Below are positions 20,853 to 33,605 of a stretch of DNA of 33,636 nucleotides, one piece after another. The translations under genes were made by a program, and so were the position numbers. Origin of the DNA: a virus. The stretch covers positions 1 to 33,636 of the IMG/VR virus record IMGVR_UViG_3300009492_000003. The stretch is one strand, 5' to 3'. Position 1 is the first letter of the stretch, and the number at the start of each line of letters is the position of its first letter. The notes below the pieces were generated by a model. It was given only the letters and a program-made list of their open reading frames with translations. It was not told the DNA's origin and made no database searches.

Positions 20853-21755
20853 TCAGCGCAGTGCTAGGCCGAGGTGACGCGAAATCTTCCGCATCGCCTT
20901 GTCGCGCTTCTGGCGGATGCGCTCACGGCTAACACCCTTCGACTGCCCGATCGAGTTCAGTGTCTCGTAGTTTGCCCCGTTCAGCCCGAAGCACCTGGTC
21001 AGGATCTCGGCCTCCTCTTCGCTGATGAACGCCAGGGCTGAATTGATGGCATCAATCTGCTCCACTTGGCTGGCGTAGGTGCGGTCGTCCTCGTTTGGCT
21101 CTTCTGATGCGATCAGATCAATCAGGGCGGTCCCGTCGCCGTCCCGCGTCGTCGCCGCGACGTCCAGGCTGCACATGTGAATGGAGCGCTCCAGCACCAG
21201 GGCCAGCTGATCCTGGCTGACGCCCATCATCTCAGCAGCCTGCCGCAGCGTCAGCTCTTCGCCCGGGTTCTCCTTGCGGTAGGCCTCCCTGAGCTTCATG
21301 AGCCGGTTCAGCTTCTCAAGGGCATGGATGGGGATGCGGATCGTCCGATCGCTGGTGTCGATGCCGCGGCAGATCGCCTGGCGAATCCACCAGTAGGAGT
21401 AGGTGCTGAACTTGTAGCCGCGGGAGCTGTCGAACAGCTCAACGGCACGGTGGAGCCCGATGCACCCCTCCTGAATCAGATCCATGATCCCGTAGGTGTG
21501 GCCGGCCCTGCCCACGAACTTCTTGGCGATGTTGACCACCAGCCGGAGATTCGACGTCATCATCTTGTCGAAGGCACGTTTGCCGACTCGATACTGGCGG
21601 TGCTCCTGCGGCGTCTCGGGCTTCCCCTCCGTGTCGCGCAGCTCGATGTAGCGCTGGGCTTGGCGAGAGAGCTCGATCTCCTGGCTCGGGGTCAGCAAGG
21701 GGTAGCGGCCGATCTCCTTGAGGTAATCGGCGAAGCTGTCGGGAAAGGCAGGCAT
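20853..21755 (-). CDS. Phage-encoded RpoD-like sigma factor
   Basis: Would bind host core RNA polymerase and redirect it to phage promoters. Regions in order: 1.2 (5-33, YLKEIGRYPLLTPSQEIELS), 2.1-2.4 (55-133, including SNLRLVVNIAKKF, LIQEGCIGLHRAVELFD and YKFSTYSYWWIRQAI), 3 (137-200, with the HTH-like RQAAEMMGVSQDQL) and 4 (238-297, GVSRERIRQKRDKAMRKI). Region 1.1 is absent. The primary-type layout and the YWWIRQ segment look cyanobacterial. Cys129 replaces the Thr that in E. coli sigma70 (T440) contacts the -10 element, so promoter preference may differ. Start ATG 21755 is preceded by a CACCACCCC element. Confidence 0.93.
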   Translation of the reverse strand: MPAFPDSFADYLKEIGRYPLLTPSQEIELSRQAQRYIELRDTEGKPETPQEHRQYRVGKRAFDKMMTSNLRLVVNIAKKFVGRAGHTYGIMDLIQEGCIGLHRAVELFDSSRGYKFSTYSYWWIRQAICRGIDTSDRTIRIPIHALEKLNRLMKLREAYRKENPGEELTLRQAAEMMGVSQDQLALVLERSIHMCSLDVAATTRDGDGTALIDLIASEEPNEDDRTYASQVEQIDAINSALAFISEEEAEILTRCFGLNGANYETLNSIGQSKGVSRERIRQKRDKAMRKISRHLGLALR

Positions 21756-26617: not shown

Positions 26618-27580
26618 TCAGAGGAGCAGCTCTACCTGGTCGACGTCATTCTCCGACACTGCCGTTGACTCCAGGTTCCGCACTGCCTGGCGGTAGTAGC
26701 TGGGCTTGAGCTCGATGCCTACGCCACGGCGGCCAGCCTGCACAGCGCCGTAGACCTCGCTGCCGACCCCCATGAACGGCGTGAGCACTGTCTCTCCCGG
26801 GTTGCTCCACATCACCACCGCTCGATGGATCACGTCCAACTGGAGCGGATGCACGTGCTTCTCGTCGTCATCGTCTTTGGCGCTGCGGAACTGCAGCACG
26901 TTGTCGATCCTGATGTCATCCCACACGCTTGAGGCGTACTGCCGCCAGATCCATTGGCTGTACTGGTTTTTCTTCTGATCGCCTTTCATTCCGCGAAACC
27001 CATTCAGATCGGCTGGCACGTTGCGCTCACCGCTGTAGTGCATCAGCCCGACCTCATGCACCACCGGCACGGGATTTTCGCCTTTGCGGCGGAACATCAG
27101 CAGGTAATCAGCATTGGCAATGCTGTTGCGGGTGGAGTCTTCGCACAGGGTCTTGTGATGCAAGCTCTTCATCATCGTGCGGTTGCGCACCAGGAGCGGT
27201 TCTTTCCAGATCACGCGGCGGCCACCATAGGCGAACCCTCGGGCCTTGTGCTCGCGGATGATCCGGCCAGGCAGGTCGAACATCGCGTCACAGCCGGCGT
27301 TGCTCAGCGGAATGTCCATGCAATGGACCGCTGAGATCCTGCCCGGCATTGTGATTCGAGAGATTTCGTCAATGCAGAATCCGTAATGATCAAAGAACTC
27401 GTCATAGTTCAGGCAATTAGACATGTCCCGATCGTCGCTGCTGTACTGATACAGGCCGGCGAACGGAGGGGAATAAACAGTGAGATGCACCGACGCATCA
27501 GGCAATTTTTGCATTACCTCCACACAATCGCCGTTATAAATTGCGTAGTTGTCGGTGATCAGTTGATCCTTTACAGCCAT
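26618..27580 (-). CDS. DNA methyltransferase, beta-class (N6-adenine or N4-cytosine)
   Basis: 320 residues. Catalytic motif IV SPPF at 37-40 (LTVYSPPFAG) comes first and the AdoMet-binding FMGVG at 269-273 comes near the end, the order of the beta class. An AdoMet-associated GIELKPSYY follows. No target-recognition repeat is obvious; the 90-230 region is probably the target domain. It would modify phage DNA, perhaps against restriction. Its start overlaps the helicase stop by 10 nt, so both are co-expressed. Base composition is slightly lower in GC than its neighbours. Confidence 0.9.
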   Translation of the reverse strand: MAVKDQLITDNYAIYNGDCVEVMQKLPDASVHLTVYSPPFAGLYQYSSDDRDMSNCLNYDEFFDHYGFCIDEISRITMPGRISAVHCMDIPLSNAGCDAMFDLPGRIIREHKARGFAYGGRRVIWKEPLLVRNRTMMKSLHHKTLCEDSTRNSIANADYLLMFRRKGENPVPVVHEVGLMHYSGERNVPADLNGFRGMKGDQKKNQYSQWIWRQYASSVWDDIRIDNVLQFRSAKDDDDEKHVHPLQLDVIHRAVVMWSNPGETVLTPFMGVGSEVYGAVQAGRRGVGIELKPSYYRQAVRNLESTAVSENDVDQVELLL

Positions 27581-29004
27581 TGGGGAACCTTTGCGTTGTT
27601 TGTGTAAAGATTGGTGCGTTTGATCGTAGTAGCGTCATTCATTTGTGCCACTAGCTGCTCAAACATTGCGGATGCACGCTCAGCCTTTGAGCGCATATTG
27701 GCCAGCACCCTGGCCTCTCCTTCGGTGGCGATCACGTCAACAGCAACCGGTCGCTTTTGGCCGAACCGCCAGCAACGACGAACCGATTGGTAATGCTGCT
27801 CATAGCTGTGGCTGGCAAATGTCACCACGTGGGCGCAATGCTGCCAGTTCAGGCCCCATGCGCCGATCTTGGGTTTGATCACTAGCACCCGCTGACGGCC
27901 GCTGCCAAAAGCCTCGTACAGTTCCACCTTTCGTTCATCCGGTGTGCGGCCAGCAACCTGAGCAGCATCAGGGATGAGCTGTTCCAGTAGATCACCCTCA
28001 GCATTGGTGTGGCACCAAATCACAGCCGGCTGATCATGATCAACCAGCCGGGCTGCATATTCACAACGCTCCTGAATGGTGCGTTTGCGTTCTTCGCGTT
28101 CTTCGCCAAGGCCAAACGCTGGAATTGAAAACAGCATTCCTTCAGCCGGTGGCGCAGCGATAACGTGGTCGTTTTCCGTCAGCAAAGGCAGAACAAACTT
28201 GTCATCACTGAAGCCAAGGTCTGACGGCTTGCGGCAGGCGCGCGCCCAACTTGCAACCCATTGCCAAAAGTGATCGCGGGCGTGATGCTTCAGGCGCCAT
28301 TGGCCGATTGTTTGAGAGACGCGAAACGCCAGCTTTTTGTAATAGTTGGCATTTGCTTCGACCATTGCCTCTGCTGATCTTTGCAACCGTTCCTCGCGCT
28401 TCTGGCCTTTATCGTCGAGCTGCGCAAAGAACCGGCGGAGCATGTCGCTGTAACTCAGTTCACCGAGCGCTTCGGATGAGTTGCCAAGCTCGGTGTAATC
28501 GTTTGGCGCAGCCGTTGCAGTGCACAGCAGCCGATAAGGCATCTTTGACATAAAGCGAGTGATCGCCTTTCTAGTGGAGCCATTGAACGACTTCAAAATG
28601 CTCGACTCATCGCAGACCACACCGGCAAAGTCGGCAGGGTTGAACGCTGACAGCCGCTCGTAGTTGGTGATTACGATCCGCCCAGGGACGCTGCCATCGC
28701 TGGAGCGGTGGCATTCAATCCCGAACTTCTCACCTTCGCGGATGGTCTGCGCAGCCACGGCCAGCGGCGTCAAGATCAGCACTGGCTGGTCGGTGTGCTG
28801 CGCCACGTTCTGAGCCCAGGTGAGCTGCATGGCGGTCTTGCCGAGCCCGCAGTCAGCAAAGATCGCGGCGCGACCCTTCCGCACTGCCCATTGAACGAGG
28901 GCCTGCTGGAAGTCGAACAGCTGATCGGGCATGAACACCGGCTCGAAGCCGTGGTCGGCTCCCGTGTGGAGCTTGCGCTCCAAAAACTCCTGATAGTCGT
29001 CCAT
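27571..29004 (-). CDS. SNF2/DEAD-like superfamily 2 helicase
   Basis: 477 residues from ATG 29004 (MDDYQEFLERKL); a TTG at 29058 has a ribosome site too close to be used. Walker A ADCGLGKT (50-57), motif II CDES (131-134), motif III-like LLCTATAAPNDY, and motif VI QSVRRCWRFGQKRPV near the end, the last typical of SNF2-type enzymes. ATP-driven translocase on double-stranded DNA, possibly for replication or recombination fork processing. The pairing with a methyltransferase in overlapping genes recurs in siphophages. Start is preceded by the CACCACCACCC leader. Confidence 0.9.
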   Translation of the reverse strand: MDDYQEFLERKLHTGADHGFEPVFMPDQLFDFQQALVQWAVRKGRAAIFADCGLGKTAMQLTWAQNVAQHTDQPVLILTPLAVAAQTIREGEKFGIECHRSSDGSVPGRIVITNYERLSAFNPADFAGVVCDESSILKSFNGSTRKAITRFMSKMPYRLLCTATAAPNDYTELGNSSEALGELSYSDMLRRFFAQLDDKGQKREERLQRSAEAMVEANANYYKKLAFRVSQTIGQWRLKHHARDHFWQWVASWARACRKPSDLGFSDDKFVLPLLTENDHVIAAPPAEGMLFSIPAFGLGEEREERKRTIQERCEYAARLVDHDQPAVIWCHTNAEGDLLEQLIPDAAQVAGRTPDERKVELYEAFGSGRQRVLVIKPKIGAWGLNWQHCAHVVTFASHSYEQHYQSVRRCWRFGQKRPVAVDVIATEGEARVLANMRSKAERASAMFEQLVAQMNDATTIKRTNLYTNNAKVPQWL

Positions 29005-29013
29005 ATGGCGTGA

Positions 29014-29025
29014 GGGTGGTGGTGA
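29014..29025 (-). promoter_or_regulatory. Start-associated TCACCACCACCC element
   Basis: Minus-strand TCACCACCACCC, then TCACGCCAT and ATG 29004. Preceded by the hairpin at 29027-29043. Confidence 0.55.
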
Positions 29026-29026
29026 T

Positions 29027-29043
29027 GCCGGATAGGCTCCGGC
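29027..29043 (-). promoter_or_regulatory. Hairpin upstream of the helicase leader
   Basis: Perfect inverted repeat GCCGGA (29027-29032), 5-nt loop, TCCGGC (29038-29043), immediately upstream of the CACCACCACCC element on the minus strand. No U-tract. Confidence 0.55.
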
Positions 29044-29054
29044 GGGCCGTGGGG

Positions 29055-29189
29055 TCAATCCTCCTCGATCTCCAGGTCGTTGATCAGATCGTTGAGGTGA
29101 TCCCAGAACGGGTAATCCTCCCGCTCCTCCTCGGTGGTCAGCTCGTGGAGCTGGGCGGCGAGGGCGAACAGCTGCTGACGGCGTGTCAT
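29055..29189 (-). CDS. 44-residue acidic protein
   Basis: Frame from ATG 29189 with GGAG 6 nt upstream (ATGGAGCGCACC). The product TRRQQLFALAAQLHELTTEE then HLNDLINDLEIEED is a strongly acidic helix-rich peptide. It could mimic DNA or bind a host protein, as many early phage acidic peptides do; that is inference. It ends 12 nt before the hairpin at 29027-29043 that heads the helicase leader. Confidence 0.6.
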   Translation of the reverse strand: MTRRQQLFALAAQLHELTTEEEREDYPFWDHLNDLINDLEIEED

Positions 29190-30619: not shown

Positions 30620-30787
30620 ATGAGCAAGCCCCTCCAGTCCGTCGCCGGCCAGAAGGTCTTCATTGATCCCGTCGTGCTCCGAGATGTCGACAACACCAAG
30701 CCCAGCGCCATGAGCCGGACATCCTGGGTCAACTACCTGGTTCAGCTGGGGCTCGCAGCCACGAAGCAACAGCAGCCCGATGCCTGA
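30620..30787 (+). CDS. 55-residue ribbon-helix-helix-like protein, possible regulator
   Basis: KVFIDPVVLRDVDNTKPSAM could give the strand, and SRTSWVNYLVQLGLAA the two-helix part of a CopG/ParD-like fold; the S-x-x-W-V/I-N-Y-L motif is typical. It is the first gene of the rightward operon, next to the divergent junction, as expected for a small autoregulated repressor. Its stop overlaps the next gene start by 8 nt. No other regulator-type gene is seen in the window. Confidence 0.5.
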   Translation: MSKPLQSVAGQKVFIDPVVLRDVDNTKPSAMSRTSWVNYLVQLGLAATKQQQPDA

Positions 30788-31214
30788 TCGCGAGCGCAGC
30801 GCTTACGAGATGCTCCGCTGGGTGCCGTACAGCCTGCAGACGGAGTTTGACCCGGCCCTGGCCATCGAAGGCCACTACAGCCGCATGCAGGTCCACCGCA
30901 GCGATCGGGCGCTCGACGCATGGGACGCAGCGCATCCTCAGCAGGAAAGCCCTGAACTTGCCGCATTCAGGGAGCTGGAGCGAATAGGGCGCATCACCCA
31001 GAACGACTTCTTCTCACCGTCAAAAGCCGCAGATGGATTCTATTCCCGACAACTCAAATCAATACGAGGTGATCGGATCGGTCAGGGAGGAGATCGAGCT
31101 CCTCAAGTCCGACCTGATGCAGATCGTCGAGACAACCCCGGAGGCAGACCTGATGCCTCGCGCTCGGGCACGCGTGAGCGACCACGGCTTAGGCGATTGC
31201 GTCCGCGATGCTGA
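30780..31214 (+). CDS. Unknown protein, C-terminal part doubtful
   Basis: Residues 1-88 (RSAYEMLRWVPYSLQTEFDP, then LDAWDAAHPQQESPELAAF and RIGRITQNDFFSPSKAADG) read as real coding sequence. After about 31033 the frame turns Arg/Gly/Pro-rich and overlaps the N-terminus of the replication ATPase in another frame, where the ATPase frame is the coding-like one. Either the genes overlap by 180 nt or an indel has removed the true stop. Function unknown. Confidence 0.5.
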   Translation: MPDRERSAYEMLRWVPYSLQTEFDPALAIEGHYSRMQVHRSDRALDAWDAAHPQQESPELAAFRELERIGRITQNDFFSPSKAADGFYSRQLKSIRGDRIGQGGDRAPQVRPDADRRDNPGGRPDASRSGTRERPRLRRLRPRC

Positions 31215-32706
31215 CCTCCGCCGATGGCTGGGAGACTGCCTGCTCAAGCTGCGGCCCAAGAGCCGCGGCAAGCGCAAAGGGCAGAAGCTCGACCTAACGC
31301 CTGTCCCGTGGGCCCTGGACGGGATCGTGATGCGTCACCGGCTGAACATGCTGGTGGCAGAGCCCAAGGTCGGCAAGACGTCATTCGTGCTGGCGATGAT
31401 CTCGGCATGGCACCGTGGGCAGCCGTCATTCATCGGGCAGGAGCTCAACGGCGAATGCCCGCCTGTGATCATCGTCGGAACTGATCAGCCGGAGGTGGAC
31501 TGGGGCACCATGCTCACCGCTGAAGGCCTCATGTCTTCGGACGGAGAGATGCAGGATCCCCTGGTTGCGTTCTGGTCTGCGGCTGACCCCCTGCATTTCG
31601 ACGAAGATGGCTTCAAGTTGCTCGACGAAGTCTGCGGCGAGTTTCCCGGGGCGATGGTGCTGTGCGACAGCTACCACGCCTGCGTTGCCACTCTCAACTG
31701 CGAGGACGGCAGCAGCACCTATGCCAATCCCTTGGCGCAGCTGCTGACCGTCACGGCGCCACACGGCGCCACCACGGTGGTGATCCATCACGCAAACAAG
31801 GGCCAGGGCGGATCGATCGTGAGCAAGGCGCGAGGGACCACCGCGCTTACGGCCATCCCCTCGCAGAACATCCTGCTGGCGCCGATGGCCAGCGAAGCCA
31901 ACCCCAACGACCGACGCATCCAACTCAAGACTCAGGGCCGCGCAGGACGGCCTCAGAGCCTGATCATCGAGCGGACGGACGACGGCTGGATCTCTCACGG
32001 CGATGGTCAGGACGTCGTCGAGGAGCAACGCAGGGCTGACGCAGTGCTCAACCTGCCCGACAAAGACGCCGAGGTCTATGCCTACATCCAAGACCGATCA
32101 GCCCAGGGATTCCCTGTCTCTCAGAACGAGCTCCACGCAAACCGCGAACTGAGGCTCAAGCAGTACCAGGCCAGCCGCATCTGCCAGCGACTTGCCCGGG
32201 CAGGGCTGATCTACCAGGACGGACGGGCCTCCGCAGGCGTTGCAGGCGGCCGACCATCACCGCTGTTCAGGGCCAGGGATACCGGCGATGGAGCCCTCTC
32301 TGCAGAACTGCATTCAACGCTTGAACTGCATTCAACCTCGCGCGCACATGAAATAAGTGGGTTTAATGCAGTAAAAACAGTAAAAGCAATAATGCAAGGG
32401 GAGGGGTTTAATGCAGAGCCTCTGCCTGCGTTCAACCATCCCGTCGACGTTCAGCTGGTGCCCGGAGGAGATTGGGCCAGCGGTCACATCACATGCGGGC
32501 CTGCCCCAGGTGATCAGCTGTTCATCCGTCTGGTTGACGGCGATCCAGACGTCAGGCGCCCGTTGCCGCGCTCTCGCATCAGATCGTCCCTGTCTGCCCC
32601 TCTAGCAGCCGAGAGCCAGCCTTCCGCGTCAATCCCCTCTGATCCATCCACACCCGCGTCAGAGCCGCACACAGCGGCCGCTGACGATCACCCCTACGGT
32701 TTCTGA
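31033..32706 (+). CDS. RepA/AAA-type replication ATPase with winged-helix part
   Basis: 557 residues. Residues 1-85 are charged. The ATPase core has Walker A AEPKVGKT (109-116), a VGTDQP segment (148-153), Walker B MVLCDS (208-213), a sensor-like TTVVIHHANKGQGGS and SKARGTTAL. This is the RecA-fold AAA_25/hexameric RepA helicase pattern. Residues about 330-425 look like a winged-helix DNA-binding domain (AYIQDRSAQGFPVSQNEL, YQASRICQRLARAGLIYQD). The remainder is low-complexity and disordered, and its DNA carries a repeat cluster. It likely opens or unwinds the origin. Confidence 0.82.
   Translation: MDSIPDNSNQYEVIGSVREEIELLKSDLMQIVETTPEADLMPRARARVSDHGLGDCVRDADLRRWLGDCLLKLRPKSRGKRKGQKLDLTPVPWALDGIVMRHRLNMLVAEPKVGKTSFVLAMISAWHRGQPSFIGQELNGECPPVIIVGTDQPEVDWGTMLTAEGLMSSDGEMQDPLVAFWSAADPLHFDEDGFKLLDEVCGEFPGAMVLCDSYHACVATLNCEDGSSTYANPLAQLLTVTAPHGATTVVIHHANKGQGGSIVSKARGTTALTAIPSQNILLAPMASEANPNDRRIQLKTQGRAGRPQSLIIERTDDGWISHGDGQDVVEEQRRADAVLNLPDKDAEVYAYIQDRSAQGFPVSQNELHANRELRLKQYQASRICQRLARAGLIYQDGRASAGVAGGRPSPLFRARDTGDGALSAELHSTLELHSTSRAHEISGFNAVKTVKAIMQGEGFNAEPLPAFNHPVDVQLVPGGDWASGHITCGPAPGDQLFIRLVDGDPDVRRPLPRSRIRSSLSAPLAAESQPSASIPSDPSTPASEPHTAAADDHPYGF
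32305..32437 (+). repeat. Iteron cluster with A-rich tract, candidate replication origin
   Basis: Two perfect direct copies of GAACTGCATTCAAC (32305-32318, 32323-32336) are followed by two perfect copies of GGGTTTAATGCAG in inverted sense (32359-32371, 32404-32416), a partial copy near 32390 and a one-mismatch copy CTGCGTTCAACC (32426-32437). Between them lies an A-rich stretch (32351-32400, 16 G/C of 50) with a 9-nt tandem CAGTAAAAA/CAGTAAAAG (32369-32386). The whole is inside the replication ATPase gene, as lambda ori is inside gene O. Confidence 0.65.
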
Positions 32707-32933: not shown

Positions 32934-33605
32934 ATGATCAAGATCACCACGGACCTGTCAGAGCTCACCAAGGCGCAGCGCTTCATCGGCGCCTACCGGA
33001 ATCAGCTGCCCTTTGCCGCGTCGGTCGCGCTGAACCAGACCGCCAGGCAGGTGCAGCTGGCCATGAAGCAGCAGACCACAAAGTCGTTCGACAAGCCTGT
33101 CCCGTTCACGAAGAACGCCTTCCGCTACAACAAGTCCACCAAGGTCAACCTGACCGCCGAGGTGTTTCCTGCCGAGGATCGCCCCTACCTGAACACTCAG
33201 ATCTTTGGCGGTCAGCGCCTGTGGAAAACCTACGAGGGGCTGATTCGCGGTCTGGCCAGGGACAGCGGTAACCCGCTCCCCTCCAGCCGCAAGATCGTTC
33301 CCACCCAGATCGCCCGCAATGCAGCAGGCAATCCCAAGCGCCGACTGTTCGGCGAGATCCAGTCGCGCCTATCCACGTCCGATCGAGGCGGCTTCATGAT
33401 CGGCACGCCACGCGGCGGCGGTCGGATGCCTGGCGTTTATCGCCGTTCACGCGGTCGCCTTGTGCCGTACTTCCTTGCGGTGCCCAACGAGCCGACCTAC
33501 CGGCCACGCTTCCCGTTCGAGAAGCTGGGGAACGACACGGTGCGACGCGTCTACCCAACCGAGCTGTCCAAAGCGCTGGACCGGGCGATCGCCTCGGCGC
33601 GGTGA
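32934..33605 (+). CDS. Minor tail protein, gpZ-like
   Basis: 223 residues. LPFAASVALNQTARQVQLAM matches the N-terminal pattern of gpZ-type tail completion proteins; VPFTKNAFRYNKSTKVNLTA and TYRPRFPFEKLGNDTVRRVY are seen in a related group of siphophage proteins. Very basic, as gpZ is. In lambda Z lies between FII and U and is needed to position DNA in the head-tail connector. Here it is instead at the right end of the map, downstream of replication genes and directly upstream of the terminase if ends are joined. Assignment moderate. Confidence 0.5.
   Translation: MIKITTDLSELTKAQRFIGAYRNQLPFAASVALNQTARQVQLAMKQQTTKSFDKPVPFTKNAFRYNKSTKVNLTAEVFPAEDRPYLNTQIFGGQRLWKTYEGLIRGLARDSGNPLPSSRKIVPTQIARNAAGNPKRRLFGEIQSRLSTSDRGGFMIGTPRGGGRMPGVYRRSRGRLVPYFLAVPNEPTYRPRFPFEKLGNDTVRRVYPTELSKALDRAIASAR

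Follow-up and report, generated by a model that had tools for sequence, protein, structure and literature searches.

Facing arrays of 9-bp units within a RepA-type helicase gene as a probable phage replication origin

The window analyzed here is a stretch of 33,636 bp from an IMG/VR virus record, with a GC content of about 62%. Its plus strand carries, at positions 31033 to 32706, a gene for a predicted initiator-helicase of 557 amino acids made up of a RepA-like AAA_25 ATPase, a winged helix, a linker, and a C-terminal beta domain. The protein matches PHROG 30286 along almost all of its sequence (7e-138) and Pfam AAA_25 at residues 87 to 258 (4.7e-13). According to this gene, the closest named relatives of the source phage are the Synechococcus siphophages S-CBS1 (30.3 kb) and S-CBS3 (33.0 kb). 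The S-CBS3 homologue, gp45, is annotated as a “putative hexameric replicative helicase RepA” and that of S-CBS1 as a “hypothetical protein.” About 180 nt at the start of the initiator gene are shared, in a different frame, with a 144-residue ORF that has no known family (30780 to 31214, plus strand).

A single-sequence search of IMG/VR with the protein encoded at 31033 to 32706 returned no confirmed relative. An alignment-based search of the same collection found 153 relatives, of which the best 80 were kept and, together with the source phage and the two isolates, dereplicated to 52 genes. AAA_25 was present in 51/51 family members, and a P-K-x-GK Walker motif was invariant across the family. 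An AlphaFold2 model built from a 51-sequence alignment (mean pLDDT of 74.9) predicts, in order, N-terminal helices, a RecA-fold core, a winged helix (residues 343 to 414), a disordered segment (residues 418 to 463), a small beta domain (residues 470 to 518), and a disordered tail. The core, at about residues 77 to 324 (codons at 31261 to 32004), was delimited from the model, the AAA_25 match, and the fold match to RSF1010 RepA. Foldseek matched the modeled helicase to RAD51, DnaB, and RSF1010 RepA, and the best target-normalized scores among the matches listed were those of the RSF1010 RepA structures 1olo (TMt of 0.66, rmsd of 4.5) and 1nlf (0.64); the sequence match to RSF1010 RepA was weak when taken alone (E of 0.14). 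The protein thus has a RecA-fold core with a Walker motif and the topology of RSF1010 RepA, and hexamer formation and 5′-3′ helicase activity are putative. The winged helix (codons at 32059 to 32274) resembles those of the transcription factors LexA, MarR, and Crp. LexA_DNA_bind was matched by 39/51 homologues (best, 4.8e-8), and the protein of the source phage itself gave a weak MarR_2 match. This LexA-like domain is presumed to be the origin-binding domain. The linker that follows has a pLDDT below 50 (codons at 32284 to 32421), and the C-terminal beta domain is encoded at 32440 to 32586.

Most homologues end in an acidic tail closed by an aromatic residue, which reads ADDHPYGF here (32683 to 32703) and SDPFDF or DEPPLPF in others. 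This tail resembles the tip of SSB proteins, and the SSB-like protein of the phage itself (23680 to 24003, minus strand) ends in DDDSIPF; the initiator may mimic an SSB tail to contact host partners. Elsewhere in the window, the phage encodes a sigma-70 family factor of its own, in which regions 1.2, 2, and 4 are present (20853 to 21755, minus strand), as in S-CBS1/S-CBS3-like cyanophages. On the same strand, 26618 to 29058 holds two ORFs with a 10-nt overlap, one for a DEAD/SNF2-like helicase and one for an N6/N4 DNA methylase. Because PHROG 16 spans both ORFs and their S-CBS3 counterpart, gp40, is a single long “DNA methylase,” this pair suggests either that a fused gene has been split in this phage or that a frameshift is involved.

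The linker codons of the initiator-helicase gene hold a dense cluster of repeats. A sequence-only reading of the window had pointed out six related copies around an A-rich stretch with 9-nt tandem repeats in an otherwise GC-rich genome, and all of these elements are present: two direct copies of GAACTGCATTCAAC (32305 to 32318 and 32323 to 32336), two inverted copies, GGGTTTAATGCAG (32359 to 32371 and 32404 to 32416), a partial minus-strand copy, TGCATTATT (32388 to 32396), a direct copy with one mismatch, CTGCGTTCAAC (32426 to 32436, plus strand), and the A-rich tandem AGTAAAAAC AGTAAAAGC (32370 to 32387). When at most one mismatch was allowed, the motif CTGCATTMAAC occurred seven times in the whole 33.6 kb, compared to 0.84 expected; all four exact copies and five of the seven overall lie within 32308 to 32436, and no exact unit occurs elsewhere in the window, for instance, at the start of the gene.

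Alignment with 51 homologues gave these copies a common register. A direct array of three 9-bp units, D1 to D3, reads GCATTCAAC GCTTGAACT GCATTCAAC on the plus strand (32310 to 32336) and is followed by a 24-nt central spacer, CTCGCGCGCACATGAAATAAGTGG (32337 to 32360), with an alternating purine-pyrimidine run, CGCGCGCACATG, at 32339 to 32350. An inverted array, I1 to I3, comes next (32361 to 32387) and reads GCATTAAAC, GTTTTTACT, and GCTTTTACT on the minus strand; in the register of the relatives, the A-rich tandem is its I2/I3 part, and the partial copy lies directly after I3. A further inverted unit, I4 (GCATTAAAC), was located at 32406 to 32414 by motif scan and homologue alignment. Judged from this alignment, the cluster is a pair of facing arrays (three direct units, a spacer, three inverted units, and one more) rather than six loose copies. 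The most AT-rich 40- and 50-mers of the 33.6 kb fall within 32346 to 32397, overlapping the spacer and the inverted array, and mark a candidate unwinding element; the 50-mer has a GC content of 28%. Across the gene, inverted-repeat density peaks at the cluster with a value of 21, compared to a mean maximum of 11.2 and a top value of 18 in 60 synonymous-codon shuffles. The array DNA codes for residues 425 to 468, in the linker between the winged helix and the C-terminal beta domain that is predicted to be disordered (residues 418 to 463). This refines the earlier placement of the cluster in a disordered 3′ part of the gene in one respect: a folded beta domain comes after the linker, which is thus not the very end of the protein.

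The same layout was found across the family. In the 52 dereplicated homologues, the codons of the winged helix and of the C-terminal domain enclose the arrays, which are situated just 3′ of a conserved GGRP motif that closes the winged helix. Three direct 9-bp units are followed by a spacer and then by three inverted units, and most homologues have one more inverted unit beyond. The spacer measures 26 nt in 42 genes, 24 to 25 nt in 4, 49 nt in 5, and 70 nt in 1, and usually contains an alternating purine-pyrimidine run (often CGCGCGCGTATA or CGCGCGC) along with an A-rich GAAATAAG-like stretch. Both arrays are kept in the genes with a 49-nt spacer (L034, L037, L039, L057, and L060) and in the one with a 70-nt spacer (L078), the insert of which carries extra direct-type units. 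The units themselves vary widely among phages, e.g., GTGGCAAAC, GTGCGAAAC, GTTAGAAAC, GTGATAAAC, GTGTTTAAC, GGGTAAAAC, GGGAATAAC, GCCGCAAAC, GGGGTAAAC, and GCATTCAAC, and their most constant portion is the 3′ part. The AT-rich minimum is not general, the lowest-GC 50-mer of the gene being at the array in 21/51 homologues.

The architecture was also written as a search pattern. In 2.9 million viral contigs, the exact pattern occurred in 12 contigs, always in the initiator-helicase gene, and a looser version gave 78 matches, 26 of them in the initiator-helicase family and most others attributable to chance. The 20 matches obtained in 84,980 species genomes lay in unrelated genes or lacked arrays and were taken as chance. 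A profile run against 385 genomes from a single bacterial class gave no match but included no positive control and so carries no weight, and a plasmid search gave one weak match. Direct-then-inverted 9-bp arrays that look genuine were also seen in several contigs outside the family (L122, L143, L144, L172, L169, L174, and L137), for instance as CGTGCAAAC repeats followed by GGTTTGTCC...CTTTG. No long ORF covers these arrays, some of which are near replication genes, and they are possibly intergenic origins of the same design.

The DNA of the arrays is constrained beyond what the encoded protein demands. In 42/52 genomes, at least one direct unit agreed with an inverted unit at 8 or more of the 9 bases, compared to a mean of 1.05 genomes (maximum, 4) in synonymous shuffles, and unit pairs matching at 7/9 or better numbered 216, with 8.3 expected under the same shuffling. 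The two arms covary, matching at 7.05/9 positions within a genome and 5.68/9 between genomes, and none of 20,000 permutations reached the within-genome value. At identical amino acids in related pairs, codon identity was 0.59 to 0.76 against 0.40 to 0.49 expected at residues 420 to 459 only, and near expectation elsewhere in the gene. Simple inverted-repeat density peaked away from the array in about 10 of the 52 homologues, and scoring units in register recovered most of the signal.

The identity of the units follows that of the winged helix. Between phages, unit distance correlated with winged-helix distance (r = 0.74) far more than with the distance of the ATPase core (0.24) or of the C-terminal domain just beyond the array (0.27), and the partial correlation between units and winged helix given the ATPase core was 0.75 (0/5,000 permutations). 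When the correlation was computed in a sliding window, it climbed from about residue 340, reached its maximum of 0.73 at residues 360 to 389, remained high over the linker that encodes the units, and fell to 0.28 at residues 460 to 489. It was no higher than 0.28 over the C-terminal beta domain, and the flanking protein segments gave 0.29 and 0.28. Part of this association could be due to linkage, as the winged helix and the arrays are neighbors; plain linkage would not produce the asymmetry, since the C-terminal side does not share the association. Natural exchanges point the same way. In the pairs L016/L029 and L045/L052, the ATPase core is 98% identical and the C-terminal domain 92 to 94% identical, whereas the winged helix is only 47 to 49% identical and the unit types differ (GGGTAAAAC versus GTGGCAAAC); DNA identity is about 0.9 on either side of a segment spanning roughly residues 345 to 465, within which it falls to 0.35 to 0.6. 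Among pairs with an ATPase identity of at least 85%, the mean unit match was 8.4/9 where the winged helix was at least 80% identical (80 pairs) and 5.4/9 where it was below 60% (149 pairs); as the pairs are not independent events, these counts show consistency rather than a probability. Near-identical ATPase cores with divergent winged helices and different units show that the winged helix and the arrays travel together as a cassette.

Taken together, the anatomy of the cluster, its conserved architecture, the DNA-level constraint, the covariation of the arms, the winged helix-unit association, and the cassette exchange, along with the AT-rich minimum of the genome, the RepA-like helicase fold, and the confinement of the exact pattern to this gene, make it highly probable, in our judgment, that the cluster is the phage replication origin, located inside the gene of its own initiator-helicase and bound by the winged helix of that protein. 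The sequence-only reading had already proposed a candidate origin with iterons beside a winged helix, and the comparison with relatives supports both points. The facing arrays of a 9-bp unit, their family-wide position, the coevolution with the winged helix, and the joint exchange with it go beyond that proposal. Cumulative GC skew, a check suggested at the time, follows gene orientation, with extremes near 30 kb and at 19 to 23 kb, and does not single out the cluster. In the mechanism that we propose, the LexA-like winged helix would bind the 9-bp units of the head-to-tail arrays, which face each other across a spacer of 24 to 26 bp. With both arrays filled, RepA-type RecA-fold subunits would surround the spacer and the AT-rich inverted array; the DNA would melt there, and the helicase would be loaded directly, perhaps in the form of an opposed pair of hexamers. 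Priming and extension would then fall to host enzymes, as no phage polymerase, primase, or separate helicase loader, and no other initiator, was recognized among the genes scanned (the main replication-side ORFs, the terminase, and the portal). The sites would occupy codons of the disordered linker, a segment that tolerates variation in its protein sequence, so that the binding domain and its target would be inherited and exchanged as one origin-specificity cassette. We regard as evenly balanced the stronger proposal that such a self-contained cassette is swapped between near-identical initiators, that one recombination event thereby changes the replication specificity of a marine phage, and that the RepA-type helicase carries out its own loading from both sides, with no distinct initiator or loader.

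Three other explanations of the arrays were considered. It is scarcely credible that a low-complexity linker produced the repeats by chance or as a by-product of its protein sequence: the 9-bp period is in frame, the linker is disordered, and some linkers do read as peptide repeats, e.g., TSQTSQT, yet the peptides differ for inverted copies, codon conservation exceeds the amino acid prediction, and the one-mismatch copy of the source phage at 32426 to 32436 lies in a different frame from D1 and D3. The loss of the arm match upon synonymous shuffling led us to reject a protein-repeat artefact. In the main rival reading, the array might instead serve only as an operator or roadblock, bound by the winged-helix protein to control transcription of its own gene or the downstream tail genes, with replication starting elsewhere. 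The LexA/MarR/Crp-like character of the winged helix and the presence of tail genes just downstream (ORF at 32934 to 33605) are in keeping with this, and any binding site would explain the arm covariation and the winged-helix association equally well. However, whereas the operator of a LexA-type repressor overlaps the promoter of the regulated gene, a scan of the cluster for sigma-70-type promoters, the only type covered, found none, and exact units are confined to the cluster. Moreover, the protein is a RecA-fold helicase-type ATPase, and facing arrays around an alternating purine-pyrimidine and AT-rich center are typical of origins. We thus consider a purely regulatory site unlikely, and the array could be an origin and still take part in autoregulation.

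A packaging, partition, or recombination site for the same protein seems very unlikely. Arrays of short units do serve in partition and packaging, and the genome carries recombination genes (an exonuclease VIII-like gene, a Sak-like annealing protein, and RusA), but the protein that correlates with the units is neither ParA/ParB nor a terminase; it is an ATPase of the RepA/DnaB class and has a winged helix of its own. The terminase lies on the other side of the map, and the ORFs scanned offered no competing initiator.

If true, the origin reading would provide a mapped candidate origin and initiator for a large group of uncultured marine phages, plus S-CBS1 and S-CBS3. The natural cassette swaps would offer a readable specificity code, relating the winged helix to the 9-bp unit, and an example of replication-specificity switching, which might allow, for example, escape from interference by a coinfecting phage or from origin decoys. 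Such a gene, with the initiator and its origin in one piece, could also be used as a small replicon for cyanobacteria.

A literature search, with most subscription papers outside its reach, found no description of an origin in this initiator-helicase family, and several known systems share parts of its design. In lambda, the origin lies within gene O, with iterons and an AT-rich tract inside the initiator gene, and extra iterons lengthen the protein (PMC7466680, PMC3349717); the O protein binds the iterons via its amino-terminal half (PMC4488673). As in lambda and its Stx phage relatives, the iteron cluster of the window lies inside the coding sequence of a replication protein and adjoins an AT-rich tract, although many homologues show this tract less clearly. 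The four 18-bp iterons of lambda lie to one side of its AT tract, whereas 9-bp units face each other across a spacer here, and lambda O is a non-ATPase that recruits host DnaB through P, in contrast to a RepA-type ATPase with a LexA-like winged helix. Pfam and PHROG scans found no lambda O-type domain but AAA_25 and the LexA-like winged helix instead; together with the relatives, this bears out the earlier suggestion of a lambda O-like arrangement on an unrelated protein. If the origin reading is true, this unrelated helicase would provide an independent instance of the lambda O solution. Direct repeats within the genes of the lactococcal replisome organizers TP901-1 ORF13 and Tuc2009 ORF16 also act as origins (PMC8965321). 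The repeats here likewise lie inside the gene of a replication protein, but the lactococcal proteins are, by description, replisome organizers and not RepA-type helicases. SaPI Rep and SCCmec Cch2 are helicases whose C-terminal domain reads the iterons of their own origin, and two-hexamer loading has been proposed for them (PMC7581432). The protein described here would similarly be a helicase with a fused domain for its own iterons. The origin in those elements is just downstream of the helicase gene, whereas our arrays are inside the gene, upstream of the codons for the C-terminal domain, and Cch2 is a 3′-5′ helicase of a different class from the RecA-fold RepA-like core. That core shares its fold with RSF1010 RepA, which relies on a separate protein, RepC, to open the oriV where it is loaded (PMC8965321), whereas the winged helix and the candidate origin are built into the helicase gene here. 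By analogy, the present case would thus combine the in-gene site of lambda and TP901-1/Tuc2009 with the helicase-fused binding domain of the SaPI/SCCmec elements, on a RepA-type core.
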